From: Candidatus Sumerlaeaceae bacterium
Lineage (GTDB): Bacteria; Sumerlaeota; Sumerlaeia; Sumerlaeales; Sumerlaeaceae
NCBI GenBank assembly: GCA_019695055.1
Contig: JAIBAT010000083.1
Location: forward strand, 1-64,000
Length of the DNA stretch: 64,000 nt
Direction of reading: 5' to 3'
Part shown: in pieces, positions 1,523 to 9,161 of the stretch
Layout of the letters: every line of letters starts with the position of its first letter
Position numbering within the stretch: the stretch's first letter is position 1
The notes under the pieces: generated by a model
Database searches by the model: none
Told to the model about the DNA's origin: nothing
Seen by the model: only the letters and a program-made list of their open reading frames with translations
Position numbers and translations under genes: made by a program

Positions 1523-2863
1523 TCAGTTGCGCGCCAGTGCCGCCTCCACGTCGGCGACGGCATCCGTCCCGATGGGGCTCAGCCCATACTTTTCATGGAG
1601 AATCGCCAGCACGTTTGGCGTTATGAAAGCCGGCAGGGCCGGGCCAAGACGGATATTCTTCACGCCAAGGTGCAGCAGGGTCAGCAGCACGGCAACCGCC
1701 TTCTGCTCAAACCATGAAATGACGAGCGACAGTGGCAGATCGTTGACGCCGCACTCGAAGGCCTTCGCCAGCGCAAGAGCCACCTGAACCGCGCCATAGG
1801 CGTCGTTGCATTGCCCCATGTCCAGCAGCCGTGGTACTTCCAGGCCGCCCAGTTTGATGGTGCCGTACTCCTGATTGCGAATGCGGTACTTGCCGCAACC
1901 CAGCGTCAGGACGATGCTTTCCGGCGGCGTATTCGCCGCGTAATCCGCGTAGTAGTTTCGCCCTGGCTCGGCGCCATCGCATCCGCCAATTACGAAGAAA
2001 TGCTTCAGGTCGCCTGCTTTGACCGCTTCCACAATCTTGTCCGCCACGTCCAGCAGCACGGTGTAGTGGAACCCAATCGTCGAGGTGGTGATGGGTGTGG
2101 GCTTTAGGGAGCCGATCTCCAGCGCCCGCTTGATAACTGCCGAGAAATCGTTGGTCGTCAGTCGCGTTGCGCCCGGCACGGCTGTGACGCGGGTCGTAAA
2201 GAAATTTGGCAGGTAGGTGTTAGTCTCGCGCGGAATCAGAACACAGTTGGTCGTCGCCAGGATCGCACCGCCAAAGGCTTCGAACTCATCCCGCTGCTTT
2301 TGCCAGGCACCGCCGAAATGTCCCTTCAGGTGAGGGAACTCCCGCAGCTTGGGATACATATGCGCGGGCAACATCTCTCCGTGTGTATAGACGTTGATCC
2401 CCTTCCCGGCCGTCTGCTCCAGTAAATCCTTCAAATCCACCATGTCGTGGCCGGTCACAAGGATTCCCGGTCCCGCTTCCAGCCCCTCACGCACTGTCGT
2501 CGGTGAGGGTTTTCCCAAAACCTCAACGTGTCCGTCGTTGAGCATTTGCATCGTTTTCAGATTCATTCGGCCGCATTCAAGAACCAGTTCCAACATGCTC
2601 TCCTCGTCGAAGTTCACGTTTGTGACGGTTGCGAAAAGGGCCTCCTCGATGAACGATTCCACCTCGGGATCTGTCTTGCCCAGCCGGCGGGCGTGGGCCT
2701 TGTAGGAGGCCATCCCCTTCAGGCCGTAGAGCAGAATCTTCTGCAGGCTTTCAACATCGGGATTCTTCCCGCAGACTCCCATGCTCACGCAGGCCTGCCC
2801 GCGGAAAGTCTGTTCGCACTGATCACAGTGCATTGAGCTGATGGATGAGTTGGTCAGGTTCAT
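1523..2863 (-). CDS. hcp: Hybrid cluster protein, short class III-like form
   Basis: Hybrid cluster (prismane) proteins carry an Fe4S4 or Fe2S2 cluster and a 4Fe-2S-2O hybrid cluster; they reduce hydroxylamine in vitro and are now seen mainly as NO reductases in nitrosative stress. The N-terminal cluster motif is C13-x2-C16-x8-C25-x5-C31. Hybrid-cluster ligand regions are visible: HGEMLPAH, NCVLIPRE, GGCDGAEPGRNYY, LGCGKYRIR and GQCNDAYGAV. At 446 residues it is about 100 shorter than the roughly 550-residue class I and II enzymes; the missing part lies after the N-terminal Cys motif, which is the mark of class III. AAGGAG lies 11 bases before the ATG. The Rrf2 gene is directly upstream and a palindrome sits in the gap, so Rrf2 control is likely. 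Confidence 0.93.
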   Translation of the reverse strand: MNLTNSSISSMHCDQCEQTFRGQACVSMGVCGKNPDVESLQKILLYGLKGMASYKAHARRLGKTDPEVESFIEEALFATVTNVNFDEESMLELVLECGRMNLKTMQMLNDGHVEVLGKPSPTTVREGLEAGPGILVTGHDMVDLKDLLEQTAGKGINVYTHGEMLPAHMYPKLREFPHLKGHFGGAWQKQRDEFEAFGGAILATTNCVLIPRETNTYLPNFFTTRVTAVPGATRLTTNDFSAVIKRALEIGSLKPTPITTSTIGFHYTVLLDVADKIVEAVKAGDLKHFFVIGGCDGAEPGRNYYADYAANTPPESIVLTLGCGKYRIRNQEYGTIKLGGLEVPRLLDMGQCNDAYGAVQVALALAKAFECGVNDLPLSLVISWFEQKAVAVLLTLLHLGVKNIRLGPALPAFITPNVLAILHEKYGLSPIGTDAVADVEAALARN

Positions 2864-2913: not shown

Positions 2914-2933
2914 TATGGATACGGATATCCATA
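2914..2933. promoter_or_regulatory. Candidate Rrf2-type operator upstream of hcp
   Basis: A perfect 8-4-8 inverted repeat, TATGGATA-CGGA-TATCCATA, lies 51 bases upstream of the hcp start, in the 107-base gap between the Rrf2 gene and hcp. On the hcp strand a TATGAT sequence resembling a -10 box lies just upstream of it. Size and symmetry suit a dimeric regulator. Binding by the neighbouring Rrf2 protein is inference. Confidence 0.5.
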
Positions 2934-2970
2934 TATCATAATGCGAGGTGTGCAGGATATTTTCCGAAAT

Positions 2971-3474
2971 CTATTTTTTCGCGGATTTGGGGCGTGGAAC
3001 CGCGCTCTTCCCACTGCCACCATTGGGCTTCTGGCTCGCCGCCATCAGGGATTTCACCGCGCACAGAGGTGCAATCCCGGTCGCGCTGTGGGCCAAGGAT
3101 GCCAGCGACGCAGAACGAAACGCGGTCTCCACATGGGCTACGGCATCATCCACCAGCTTGTGGACCGGGCACAGGCGAATATGAGAATCAATCCCCAGCG
3201 GACATTTTCGGATACGCTGGGGCAGTCCGTCCACTGCCGACAACACATCCAGTACGGTCACCTCGGACGGATCCCTTCGCATCACAAATCCGCCTCCCAA
3301 TCCCCGTTGCGAATCCACCAGTTGCGCCCGCACCAGAGCCTGCATGATTTTCGACAGGTACCCTGCGGGAACCCGTGTCGTTTCCGCTATTTCGGCCGTG
3401 GTTCGGGGTTGCTTGGGATTCATGGCCAGCATCACCGCCGCCCTTAGGGCATACTCGCCTGTCGTCGTAATCAT
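2971..3474 (-). CDS. Rrf2-family transcriptional regulator (NsrR/IscR-like)
   Basis: A 167-residue winged-helix regulator. It opens with MITTTGEYALRA, the usual Rrf2 start, followed by the recognition region (VPAGYLSKIMQALVRAQLVDS) and the wing (RGLGGGFVM). Two cysteines in the linker before the dimerisation helix (KCPL and LCPVH, about residues 91 and 101) and a later one (APLCAV, about 137) could bind an Fe-S cluster, as in NsrR and IscR. A GTG at 3522 would add 16 residues; I prefer the ATG because it matches the family start. The C-terminal tail is Ala/Lys/Pro-rich. It lies upstream of and on the same strand as hcp, so it probably senses NO or redox state and controls hcp. It could also be the last gene of the copper-linked operon upstream. 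Confidence 0.88.
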   Translation of the reverse strand: MITTTGEYALRAAVMLAMNPKQPRTTAEIAETTRVPAGYLSKIMQALVRAQLVDSQRGLGGGFVMRRDPSEVTVLDVLSAVDGLPQRIRKCPLGIDSHIRLCPVHKLVDDAVAHVETAFRSASLASLAHSATGIAPLCAVKSLMAASQKPNGGSGKSAVPRPKSAKK

Positions 3475-3578
3475 GGGGTGCACCGCCCCGTCCCGTGAGA
3501 AAATGGACTCATCTGTTCCCACCCGCTATGCCCCGCGTTTCGCAATGTCACTTCTTTTCCGGTTCCCGGCCGGCCCGG

Positions 3579-5298: not shown

Positions 5299-6443
5299 AC
5301 CCTCCTCAGGCTTTCCACAATGGGAGCACGGGCGGCTTGAATGGCCGGCATCATGCCTGCCATTAGGCCCGTTACCAGTGAAGCAAGTAGCCCTCCCGCC
5401 ACAACGGCAGGAGTCAGCAGAAACGTGATCTGCACCCCCTCAGCGCCAAGGCCAAGGTGGCCAAGCCTCAGCGCGAGCGCAGCGGCCAGGGTCCCGGCAA
5501 TCCCTCCGCCGAGGGACAGGATCAAGCTCTCCATCACGACGATGAAGAAAAGTGACGATCCCTTGAACCCGAGAGTCTGAAGCACGGCATGTTCCTTCAC
5601 GCGATCCTGCACCATGACATAAACAGTGTTCGCAGTCAGGGCCAGCACCAGCAACACGCAAAGGAAACCAAGATACCGCGTAAACCGAATCAGTCCCAGC
5701 AGGTCGCCGGTGGCCGAACTGATAAACGCCTTGTGAGACTTGGTTGTTGTCTGGATTTCCTCTGACCGGAACAGGTCGTCAATCTTCGCAATGATCTCAT
5801 CGGTCTTCGTTGGGTCGGAAATTGCGACTTCGAATTGTGTCACTCGCCCAATCGCATCCTTCCCACGCGCCTGCTGAAGGTAACTAAGCTGGGTATAGGC
5901 CAGATTGTCCTCGCCCGGAACTTCGGAATCAAAAATTCCAGCGACGCCGACTCCGAAACCACCAATCGTGAAGCGATCCCCGACTTTCAGGTTTCGGCGC
6001 GCCGCTAACCTCTGCCCCACAATGGCCGCATCCGTGCGCCCGGCAAACTTATCCAGGCTTCCCGCCGACAATTGTACCGGATGGACACCCGAGGTCAGAA
6101 TCTCCGGCGGAACCCCCCGAAATGTCACGCTGTCCAGGCTCGCACGGCAATTGTTGACGAAAATTCGCGTCGGCATCACGCTCACGACCCCGGGCACCCG
6201 CGCAATCTGCGAGGCATAGCGCTCCGGTAAGTTGCTCGTCGCCGGGCAAAAGCGGCTCTTCTGGTAAGCGATCAGAAGGTTCTTGGTGGCTTCGCTTTCC
6301 GTGGCTTCGCGCACGCCATTCTGCAGCCCTTCGATGAAGCAAAACAGAAACATGGCCGTCGCAATTCCCAGGGCTGTCAGGGCGCTGCGGACACGATGGC
6401 GGGCCACGCTTTTCCATACGTATTGCAGGAGTTTGGTGATCAC
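5295..6443 (-). CDS. FtsX-like ABC permease (MacB type), copper-linked operon
   Basis: A 382-residue FtsX/MacB permease. A short basic N-terminus (KSVARHRVRSALTALGIATA) leads into the first helix, followed by a MacB-like periplasmic domain (about 45-260) and three C-terminal helices with the coupling motif VKEHAVLQTLGFKGSSLFF. It starts with GTG inside a GTGA overlap with the stop codon of the ATPase-cupredoxin gene and ends in an overlap with the next permease gene, so all three are translationally coupled. The periplasmic domain has two cysteines (FCPATSN and NNCRAS, about residues 62 and 99) that may matter for metal or redox work. That is a guess, not a known family feature. Confidence 0.88.
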   Translation of the reverse strand: MITKLLQYVWKSVARHRVRSALTALGIATAMFLFCFIEGLQNGVREATESEATKNLLIAYQKSRFCPATSNLPERYASQIARVPGVVSVMPTRIFVNNCRASLDSVTFRGVPPEILTSGVHPVQLSAGSLDKFAGRTDAAIVGQRLAARRNLKVGDRFTIGGFGVGVAGIFDSEVPGEDNLAYTQLSYLQQARGKDAIGRVTQFEVAISDPTKTDEIIAKIDDLFRSEEIQTTTKSHKAFISSATGDLLGLIRFTRYLGFLCVLLVLALTANTVYVMVQDRVKEHAVLQTLGFKGSSLFFIVVMESLILSLGGGIAGTLAAALALRLGHLGLGAEGVQITFLLTPAVVAGGLLASLVTGLMAGMMPAIQAARAPIVESLRRV

Positions 6444-7651
6444 TTGGCACCTCCTGCCGCATCCGCCACCACTGTGATGGCTCCGTGCATCATGTCCATG
6501 CCGCAGCGGAAGTCCACCGTCCCGCCTTTGACGGGCGTAAACCGGAACTCCGCCGTCTGCCCCGTCACCAACTCCTTGCTGATGTTGAACTCCGGAATCT
6601 CAAAAACCCGGGAGCATGCCGAGTCATCCGTTTTGGTCACCTTGAGCAACACGGGTTTTCCAGCCGCCACGGTCAGGGTTTCAGGGCTGTACTTGGTTGT
6701 GACGATGATTTCCGCAACCTGTTCGCCGCTAGCATTCAGTTTTGCCATTCCGTCCCCACCAAACACAAACCACGCAACCACGGCGCCTGTCAACAAAGCG
6801 GCAGTTACGAACATTGGTTTGCGCGACTTCACCTTCTTGCGAGGTGACACGCGCCCTTCCATCGGAGCGCTCACGGGGTTTGGTTCGGATCGCTTTGGAA
6901 CAGGCGGAACCTCGATGCGTTCCAACGTGGATCCCGATTCGGGCACTACCGGCATGTCGGGGGTGTCTACGATTAGGCCTTTATCCAGGTAGACAATTCG
7001 ACTCGCCGCAGAGGCGGCATGAGGATCATGGGTAACCATGACGAAGGTTTTTCCCATTTCGCGATTCAACCTCTGAAGGAGCGTCAAGGTTGCCTCGGCT
7101 GACGTCTTGTCCAAATCTCCAGTCGGCTCGTCCGCCACAACGATTGCAGGAGCCGTGACCAATGCTCGCGCTATCGCTACTCGCTGTTCCTGGCCACCCG
7201 ATAGCTGTCGCGGATAGTGGTCGTGGCGGTCCAGCAGACCCACCGCCTCCAACGCCAGATTAACCCGCAATTGCCGCTCTTTGCGGGATAGGTTGTGCAG
7301 TATCAGTGGCAGCTCAATGTTCTCATAAGCCGTCAGTACCGGCACCAAGTGGTAGAGCTGGAAAATGTAACCCACGTGTTTCGAGCGCCACTCAGCCAGC
7401 TTTGAGCGCGAAAGCGTGGCAATGTCCGTTCCACCGACAATGACCTGGCCTTCTGTGGGCTGGTCAATTCCGGCAATCAGGTTGAGCAACGTCGTCTTTC
7501 CCGAACCCGACGGGCCCATGAGCGCCACAAACTCCCCGTCGCCCACGGAAAGGTTCAGATTGCTTAGGGGCGTGACAAGCTGGTCGCCCTTCTCGTACGA
7601 CTTGGTGACATTGACCAGTTGGATCAACGAATGCTTTGTATTGGTTTCCAT
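6440..7651 (-). CDS. ABC ATPase fused via one TM helix to a C-terminal cupredoxin domain
   Basis: A 403-residue fusion. Residues 9-230 are a MacB/LolD-type ATPase: Walker [10 protein letters not shown] (46-54), Q-loop FQLYHL, signature LSGGQEQR (150-157), Walker B VVADEP with the D-loop, and switch His THD (208). A basic linker (271-279) precedes one helix (about 280-297). Residues 310-396 form a cupredoxin-like domain with C346, then the block [10 protein letters not shown] (381-390), which resembles the plastocyanin-like domains found with copper ATPases. The helix would place this domain in the periplasm. I start at METNTKHS because it follows the adaptor stop by 7 bases. The usual members of this ATPase family end near residue 230, so the fusion is unusual. 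Copper binding is a family-based inference. Confidence 0.85.
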
Positions 7652-7658
7652 TGATTTT

Positions 7659-9161
7659 CTACTCCATTGCCGCAATCTTGACGCGGCTTCCTTCCGAGAG
7701 TTTCTCTGCACCGGAGACAATAATCTTGTCCGGCGGCTCCACACCAGCAGTCACCTCCCGCAGGTTCCCCCGCTTGCGGCTGCCGAATGTCACCGTGCGC
7801 TGATGCGCTGTCTGGTCTGCGGCTACAAACCAAAGTTTTGCTTCGTGGGCATCGCTCTGAGCTAGGGACTCCGGCACAAATAGGGACGAGGCGCCCATCG
7901 TTTTGCTTGTGCCATGGTCCGCAGGCCTTGCCTCCGATTTCGGCGAAGTGAATTGAACCCGCACGATCATCTCCGGCTTCAGTGCCGGGTCGGGATCAAG
8001 AATGCGAGCCTTCACCTGCAATGAGTTGCGCTGGATATCCGCCTGATGAACCACACGCGTGATCTCGCCGTGAAACGTCCGGTCGGGCATGGCTTCGATG
8101 TGAATCTCCGCGGGCAGTCCGATGCGTATCTTTGCCGCATCCGCCAGCGGAACCTCCGCTCTCACCTGAAGTTTGTTGGGATCGTACATATGGAGAATCC
8201 TCATGCCACCCTCCATGGCCATCGAAACCATGGAGCCGGGATTCGCATAAAGCGCCATTACTGTTCCACTCGTCGGAGCAACGATCCTTGTCCGTTCAAG
8301 TTTCAATCTGGCCTGGGCCAGCGCCGCCTGGGCTTCATGGTTTTCCGCCTTGGCTTTGGTGAGGCGCTGCCGGTCGTCCAGACGCAGTTTCAATCGCTCC
8401 TCCGCAGCCTCGATGATGGCTACCTGGGCCTCCAGCTTCGCCTCGATTTCCTTGATTCCGGCTTCACCGGCACTGAATTCGAGGTTTGCCTTGGTCGCAT
8501 CAAATTTTCCGCCGGCACCGCTTGTGCTCAGGCTCTGATTGATCTCCGCCTGCTGTCGTGCGATTTTGAGTTGGTCTTCCGATCTCTTCTTCTCCGCATG
8601 GAGCCTGGTCTTCTCCGCCTTCGCGGCTTTCAAAGCCTCGCGGAGCGTGGTCGGGTTGTCCCAATTCGCCTGGGCAGATTCCAGTTCGGCGCTGGTGATT
8701 TCAAGTGCTGCCTCCGCCGATTTTACAGCCAGTTGGGCCTCGCCGTCGTCCAACTCCGCCACGACCTGACCTGATGTGACCTGCTCGCCTTCACGGACAT
8801 GGATATGCGTTACAATGCCAGGCTCCAGTGAGGAAACCACTGTATGAAATGGGTCCGGTTCCACCCAACCTGGCGCCTGGAACAGAGGCGTGCCGCTGGC
8901 AACTTCGACCGTCGCGCCCTCCGACGATGAAGTCACCGCAGTCAGCACCGGCATCACCACCTTCACCGGCACCGCAGGCAAAATGCTGCCACGGATGGCA
9001 TAACCACCCGTCAGTAGAAAGCCCGCCAACAGCACGGACGGCACCACATAGCGCGTCAACACTCGTCGAGGTGGAGCCACCATCTCCCGGTCCGTGACAT
9101 GCCCCGGCAGCGGCGCTACACCTACGCCCCCGAATGTGTTTAAATCAATTTCTGGATTCAT
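7659..9161 (-). CDS. HlyD/MacA-family periplasmic adaptor
   Basis: A 500-residue membrane fusion protein. A cytoplasmic tail and one helix (about residues 37-53, VVPSVLLAGFLLTGGYAI) anchor it. A lipoyl half-motif (VTHIHVREGEQVTSGQVVAELDDGEA) precedes a long coiled-coil hairpin (about 150-275, Lys/Glu/Ala-rich), and the second half-motif is RTRIVAPTSGTVMALYANPG. Beta-barrel and membrane-proximal domains follow. It would link the inner-membrane ABC complex to an outer-membrane channel, for which no gene is seen in the window. It is encoded directly before the ATPase-cupredoxin gene. A short Met/His patch (MVSMAMEGGMRILHMYD) lies after the second lipoyl half. Methionines of this kind can bind Cu(I), but this is only suggestive. 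Confidence 0.9.
   Translation of the reverse strand: MNPEIDLNTFGGVGVAPLPGHVTDREMVAPPRRVLTRYVVPSVLLAGFLLTGGYAIRGSILPAVPVKVVMPVLTAVTSSSEGATVEVASGTPLFQAPGWVEPDPFHTVVSSLEPGIVTHIHVREGEQVTSGQVVAELDDGEAQLAVKSAEAALEITSAELESAQANWDNPTTLREALKAAKAEKTRLHAEKKRSEDQLKIARQQAEINQSLSTSGAGGKFDATKANLEFSAGEAGIKEIEAKLEAQVAIIEAAEERLKLRLDDRQRLTKAKAENHEAQAALAQARLKLERTRIVAPTSGTVMALYANPGSMVSMAMEGGMRILHMYDPNKLQVRAEVPLADAAKIRIGLPAEIHIEAMPDRTFHGEITRVVHQADIQRNSLQVKARILDPDPALKPEMIVRVQFTSPKSEARPADHGTSKTMGASSLFVPESLAQSDAHEAKLWFVAADQTAHQRTVTFGSRKRGNLREVTAGVEPPDKIIVSGAEKLSEGSRVKIAAME

Follow-up and report, generated by a model that had tools for sequence, protein, structure and literature searches.

A conserved palindrome upstream of hcp in a Sumerlaeota bacterium is a predicted operator of the neighbouring Rrf2 regulator

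A 20-bp palindrome upstream of hcp, the gene for the hybrid cluster protein, very probably serves as the site at which the Rrf2 regulator encoded next to it docks, judging by a motif that recurs before homologous rrf2 genes in several phyla. It lies in a 64-kb stretch of DNA, the whole of which is referred to here as the window, from a genome that its closest named relatives place in the candidate phylum Sumerlaeota. We have considerable confidence in the fuller reading that the palindrome is the operator of this Rrf2 protein, that the protein is an iron-sulfur repressor of hcp, and that NO releases it from the DNA; we infer binding, repression rather than activation, the presence of a cluster and NO as the signal.

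Results

A perfect palindrome lies in the hcp promoter region

The first-pass annotation had described an 8-4-8 palindrome between an Rrf2 gene and hcp, and both the palindrome and the gene names were borne out. The exact sequence TATGGATACGGATATCCATA is found at positions 2914-2933, where it reads TATGGATA-CGGA-TATCCATA around a core of GGAT-N6-ATCC, with no strand assigned. The rrf2 gene occupies positions 2971-3474 of the minus strand (PF02082, 4e-27; TIGR00738, 1e-29) and probably starts at ATG 3474, from which its homologues align, with GTG 3522 as a possible upstream start (2971-3522). The predicted target hcp, at positions 1523-2863 of the same strand (PRK05290, 8e-192; PF03063, 3e-125), encodes a short form of 446 aa and is the only hcp gene of the genome. 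Because rrf2 is the upstream gene of the two, both being on the minus strand, the palindrome, held in the 107-bp gap between the two genes, falls in the promoter region of hcp and not before rrf2; it spans 51-70 bp upstream of hcp, with its centre 60 bp before the start codon. A promoter scan recognised no sigma-70 promoter in the gap.

The palindrome had also been called fully symmetric, which is true of the two 8-base arms, these being perfectly complementary, but not of the central CGGA; the symmetry stops at the arm ends. In the 4.34-Mb genome the site is the sole match with fewer than three mismatches to TATGGATA-N4-TATCCATA, and it is one of two perfect 8-4-8 palindromes in the window. 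Symmetry alone is suggestive, being moderately unlikely by chance but not decisive: perfect 8-4-8 palindromes arose in 37 of 20,000 shuffles of the 107-bp gap (~0.2%), and the window contains 21 perfect palindromes with 8-base arms and gaps of 0-12. Such figures speak for symmetry arising by chance, or for an RNA hairpin, a reading that we nonetheless regard as extremely improbable, as a search of the gap for terminator-like sites found none and the specific letters GGAY and RTCC are kept at a fixed spacing in a motif found independently of the window. It is the conservation of this motif across loci, rather than the symmetry, that settles the reality of the palindrome, and chance symmetry was rejected on the presence of the motif across phyla.

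The motif is conserved upstream of rrf2 homologues

To describe this conservation we used 80 loci encoding rrf2 homologues, taken from public genomes, and counted exact dyads in the 200 bp upstream of rrf2 and in matched control stretches, with no motif supplied. The top dyad of this de novo count, TGGA-N8-TCCA, occurred at 23 of the 80 loci (1 in controls), and GGAT-N6-ATCC occurred at 16 (0 in controls). Palindromic expectation maximisation (EM), run from 24 random seeds on the non-Sumerlaeota loci only, gave nAnnTGGAnnTnnAnnTCCAnnTn as its best solution, which two of the seeds reached. The motif learned outside Sumerlaeota was TGGAY-N6-RTCCA with A/T flanks; a PWM scan placed the conserved span of 24 bp, WWnTGGAYnTnnAnRTCCAnWW, at positions 2912-2935 of the window (no strand), and the window site scored 19.8 bits on the non-Sumerlaeota motif, with the next best site in the 64 kb at 11.0. 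Scores of at least 12 bits were reached by 79% of the rrf2 upstream regions (n = 80) and scores of at least 15 bits by 65%, compared with 1.5% and 1.2%, respectively, of 2451 other 205-bp stretches from the same loci, where some of the control stretches at 12 bits or more contain genuine sites that precede RIC or protoglobin. None of 15 regions upstream of other Rrf2 genes reached 12 bits, and of the ten Sumerlaeota regions upstream of rrf2 that had been held out, seven scored at least 14 bits. The N6 spacing of the half-sites is strict: in the 80 upstream regions, GGAY and RTCC were separated by six bases in 35 (2 in controls), by seven in 1 and by five in 0. A scan upstream of rrf2 in relatives had been proposed as a check on the palindrome, and in it the motif proved to be kept, having been found without the window or its phylum. 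The rrf2 gene of the window, unlike those of most relatives, has no site before it.

Some operators contain a further half-site. Of 52 strong sites, 12 have an extra, co-oriented half-site (GGAY or RTCC) placed exactly 8 bp beyond the palindrome, and any other offset occurs at 2 of the 52 at most; one possibility is that a second dimer overlaps the first. Loci with the extra half-site include L037, L039, L045, L047 and L054. In the window, a possible degenerate third half-site, TGAT (2935-2938, minus strand), stands 8 bp outside the GGAT half-site and fits three of four bases. Variants of the operator were also seen. In nine Melainabacteria loci (L050, L051, L058, L061, L070, L086, L094, L097 and L111) rrf2 is preceded by ATGCAY-N6-RTKCAY, which is nearer to the NsrR half-site ATGyAT, and in the same nine loci a typical TGGAY-type site stands upstream of RIC. 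In one case (G032:C125; L009, L171) two rrf2 genes of the group are arranged in tandem, the second preceded by its own TGGAC-N6-ATCCA.

NO-defence genes neighbour the rrf2 homologues

The neighbours of the rrf2 homologues include genes for RIC/YtfE-type iron-sulfur repair proteins, quinol-type NorB, NnrS, protoglobins, globins and other hemerythrins; in one Sumerlaeota genome (G038) a truncated globin gene follows rrf2. At least one NO-defence gene lies within 1.5 kb at 45 of the 80 loci, versus 1 of 18 for other Rrf2 genes, a control set that is smaller and comes from partly different genomes. Some RIC and protoglobin genes that stand apart from rrf2, or are not divergent from it, have a site immediately in front of them, indicating that targets, and not rrf2 alone, carry the motif; the site also stands before NorB. 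With NorB, RIC, NnrS and protoglobin linked to these rrf2 genes again and again, NO is the most likely signal. Many Planctomycetota operators enclose a TTGACA-like element, read on the other strand from rrf2 (TGGATGTCAAGGTCCA), as would be expected if the operator covered the -35 box of a divergent gene, which would favour repression; the scan of the window gap picked up no TTGACA-like -35 box.

Few hcp genes of the class carry the site

Upstream regions of hcp in relatives, proposed as a second place to look for the motif, gave a divided answer. In a second Sumerlaeota genome (G034), with the gene order hcp then rrf2, a 22.6-bit site precedes hcp, whereas most other hcp genes of the class have no site; predicted control of hcp by this Rrf2 protein is therefore seen in only two genomes, in both of which rrf2 is adjacent. 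In other bacteria hcp is controlled by HcpR, a regulator of the CRP/FNR type (PMC1274295), which differs from the Rrf2 protein in its family and in its operator, TTGAC-N4-GTCAA. FNR/HcpR-type dyads, TTGA-N6-TCAA, precede six other hcp genes of the class, in sister genera where, judged by these dyads, HcpR probably controls hcp. The same dyads would favour the idea that another regulator, HcpR for example, binds the palindrome and that the adjacency of rrf2 is coincidental. We find this very unlikely, since the window site does not have the TTGA-N6-TCAA pattern and since TGGAY-N6-RTCCA tracks rrf2 across phyla and is absent before other Rrf2 subfamilies. A site of the TTGAC-N4-GTCAA type is absent from the rrf2-hcp gap.

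Before the hcp genes of four Sumerlaeota loci (L116, L118, L120 and L125), AT-rich dyads near GATAYTAAAYATC lie 50-100 bp upstream; they resemble neither the window operator nor FNR/HcpR sites and possibly represent a further Rrf2 operator variant. The Hcp proteins of the window (1523-2863) and of L116-L128 are short, at about 440-470 aa, and most of them, over the greater part of the chain, align with the hydroxylamine reductase model only from about position 138; part of the N-terminal region is thus missing.

The window genome contains five exact matches to WNTGGAYN6RTCCANW. The four other than the window site were rejected as evidence of a wider regulon, three being inside open reading frames and the fourth where two frames converge with their 3' ends, so that hcp is the only convincing target in this genome. 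Convergent with hcp, positions 628-1488 of the plus strand encode an FAD/NAD-binding reductase (PF00175, PF00970) whose best NCBIfam match, ferredoxin--NADP(+) reductase, fell below the cut-off; no operator-like site was found before the gene. By analogy with Hcr in E. coli, our guess is that this reductase could possibly donate electrons to Hcp. Elsewhere in the window, positions 6440-7744 encode an ABC-transporter ATPase with a C-terminal membrane segment and a cupredoxin-like domain (PF00005, PF13473), which adjoins two permeases of the MacB/FtsX type and a fusion protein of the HlyD type (7659-9161).

The Rrf2 protein and its operator compared with NsrR and RsrR

The window protein falls within the Rrf2 superfamily (PF02082, 95.3 bits, cut-off 30; TIGR00738, 102.7 bits, cut-off 73.3). 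It scored 34.7 bits on the NsrR equivalog model NF008240, far from the cut-off of 182, and three paralogues in its own genome outscored it on that model; by sequence, the window Rrf2 protein is not an NsrR. NsrR, of E. coli, Bacillus and Streptomyces coelicolor, is an NO-sensing Rrf2 repressor whose cluster cysteines are C91, C96 and C102 in E. coli and C93, C99 and C105 in S. coelicolor (ScNsrR). The window protein's C91 and C102 align with C91 and C102 of E. coli NsrR, and the middle NsrR cysteine is absent in 46 homologues. Throughout these 46, E7, C91, H98, C102 and H105 are invariant, a set that would suit a metal or Fe-S site, and C138 is nearly so. The closest solved protein by profile search was RsrR (8e-23), with NsrR at 1.5e-10, and RsrR was also the best match by E-value to the predicted fold (mean pLDDT 88.5). 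In a tree, the Sumerlaeota group with the window protein was the only one well supported (98/98); on the place of the family relative to E. coli NsrR and IscR the tree was uninformative, given the very long branches of these two and one mis-extracted paralogue from the window genome.

NsrR controls hcp, ytfE/dnrN, norB and nnrS, and its operator consensus is gATGyAT-N5-ATrCATc (PMC1274295). The window protein and its relatives resemble it in the Rrf2 fold, in an NO-defence regulon deduced from DNA at the 80 loci, in the register of Cys91 and Cys102, and in the window half-site ATGGAT, which is one base from ATGyAT. They differ in the operator, ATGGAY-N6 here and ATGyAT-N5 in NsrR, and in the missing middle Cys. 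The window's ATGGAT-N6-ATCCAT is thus one base and one spacer base away from an NsrR operator, but as an NsrR operator it was rejected, with 5 mismatches to the consensus at best. That consensus fits the ytfE and hmp operators of E. coli with 0 mismatches, and on the new motif these operators score below zero bits. Together, the mismatches and the E. coli scores confirm an earlier remark that the palindrome differs from the NsrR consensus. An nsrR gene has been annotated in Sumerlaeota, with no operator given (PMC10866078).

The [2Fe-2S] ligands of RsrR, from Streptomyces venezuelae, are two Cys of one monomer and Glu and His of the other (PMC11138216). Its operators, represented by the gel-shift probes CTCGGATACCCGATGTCCGAG and CTCGGATAGTCTGTGTCCGAG, contain CTCGGATA...TGTCCGAG, that is, GGAY-N7-RTCC (PMC5015018). 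Besides being the closest solved structure by sequence and fold, RsrR shares the GGAYA half-site with the operators described here, and a further likeness is the paired sites before its own gene. The two operators differ in that RsrR has N7 between GGAT and GTCC and CTC/GAG flanks, and those described here have N6 and other flanks. The RsrR type, an 11-3-11 inverted repeat, was not that of the 80 loci, where N6 occurred at 35 and N7 at 1, and on the new motif the RsrR half-site scores only -0.4 to 4.3. Its targets, in NAD(P)H and glutamate metabolism, differ as well. Set against the RsrR ligands, at the positions we take them to have (e.g. His at 12), the Glu corresponds to the invariant E7 and two Cys are present, with Arg at the His 12 position and one Cys out of register. 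The suggestion that the palindrome may define a new Rrf2 operator thus stands in so far as the site is conserved and distinct from that of NsrR, and must be qualified in that the GGAY half-site was already present in RsrR operators.

The kinship of the window protein with RsrR keeps in consideration an alternative in which this Rrf2 protein does use the palindrome as its operator and responds to redox or Fe-S status, as RsrR or IscR does, the NO-defence response being indirect. RsrR, the closest solved protein and one with the same GGAY half-site, was itself first mis-annotated as NsrR before it proved to be a redox sensor and not an NO sensor (PMC5015018), and the NsrR cysteine signature is incomplete in the window protein. 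The linked genes, however, are NO-specific (NorB, RIC, NnrS, protoglobin, globins) and not those of Fe-S assembly or NAD(P)H metabolism, and we consider a redox signal unlikely, if deserving of some weight.

Discussion

The best reading of these sequences is that of an Rrf2 protein which resembles RsrR and has a regulon like that of NsrR: by its targets the group is like NsrR, and by its sequence, nearest structure and half-site it is nearer to RsrR. The comparisons support a group of Rrf2 proteins whose targets are NsrR-like and whose operator is distinct, with a half-site known from RsrR. If the palindrome is the operator of an NO-responsive repressor, as we favour, an Rrf2 dimer, probably with an Fe-S cluster, would bind in the promoter region of hcp, with its two winged helices on the TGGAY half-sites, and would repress hcp. 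NO, or linked redox stress, would damage or modify the cluster and the dimer would leave the DNA, whereupon Hcp would be made and would remove NO.

Inclining only slightly towards the broader claim, we suggest that the group is an undescribed Rrf2 subfamily that serves as an NO-response repressor of at least Sumerlaeota, Planctomycetota, Melainabacteria and Armatimonadota, with an NO-sensing cluster formed without the third NsrR cysteine and with the operator TGGAY-N6-RTCCA, joined in about a quarter of cases by a third half-site 8 bp further out. In open-access literature on Planctomycetes, on Rrf2 with protoglobin and on Sumerlaeota, we found no earlier description of the operator.

In practical terms, rrf2 genes of this kind should not be annotated as NsrR, nor by default as Fe-S regulators. 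The group, standing between NsrR in its targets and RsrR in its sequence, structure and half-site, bears on how Rrf2 proteins have switched both signal and DNA spacing. The palindrome points to an undescribed NO-response switch in poorly studied bacteria, and it provides a concrete predicted operator and a probable regulon for an Rrf2 group of several little-studied phyla without a recognised NsrR.
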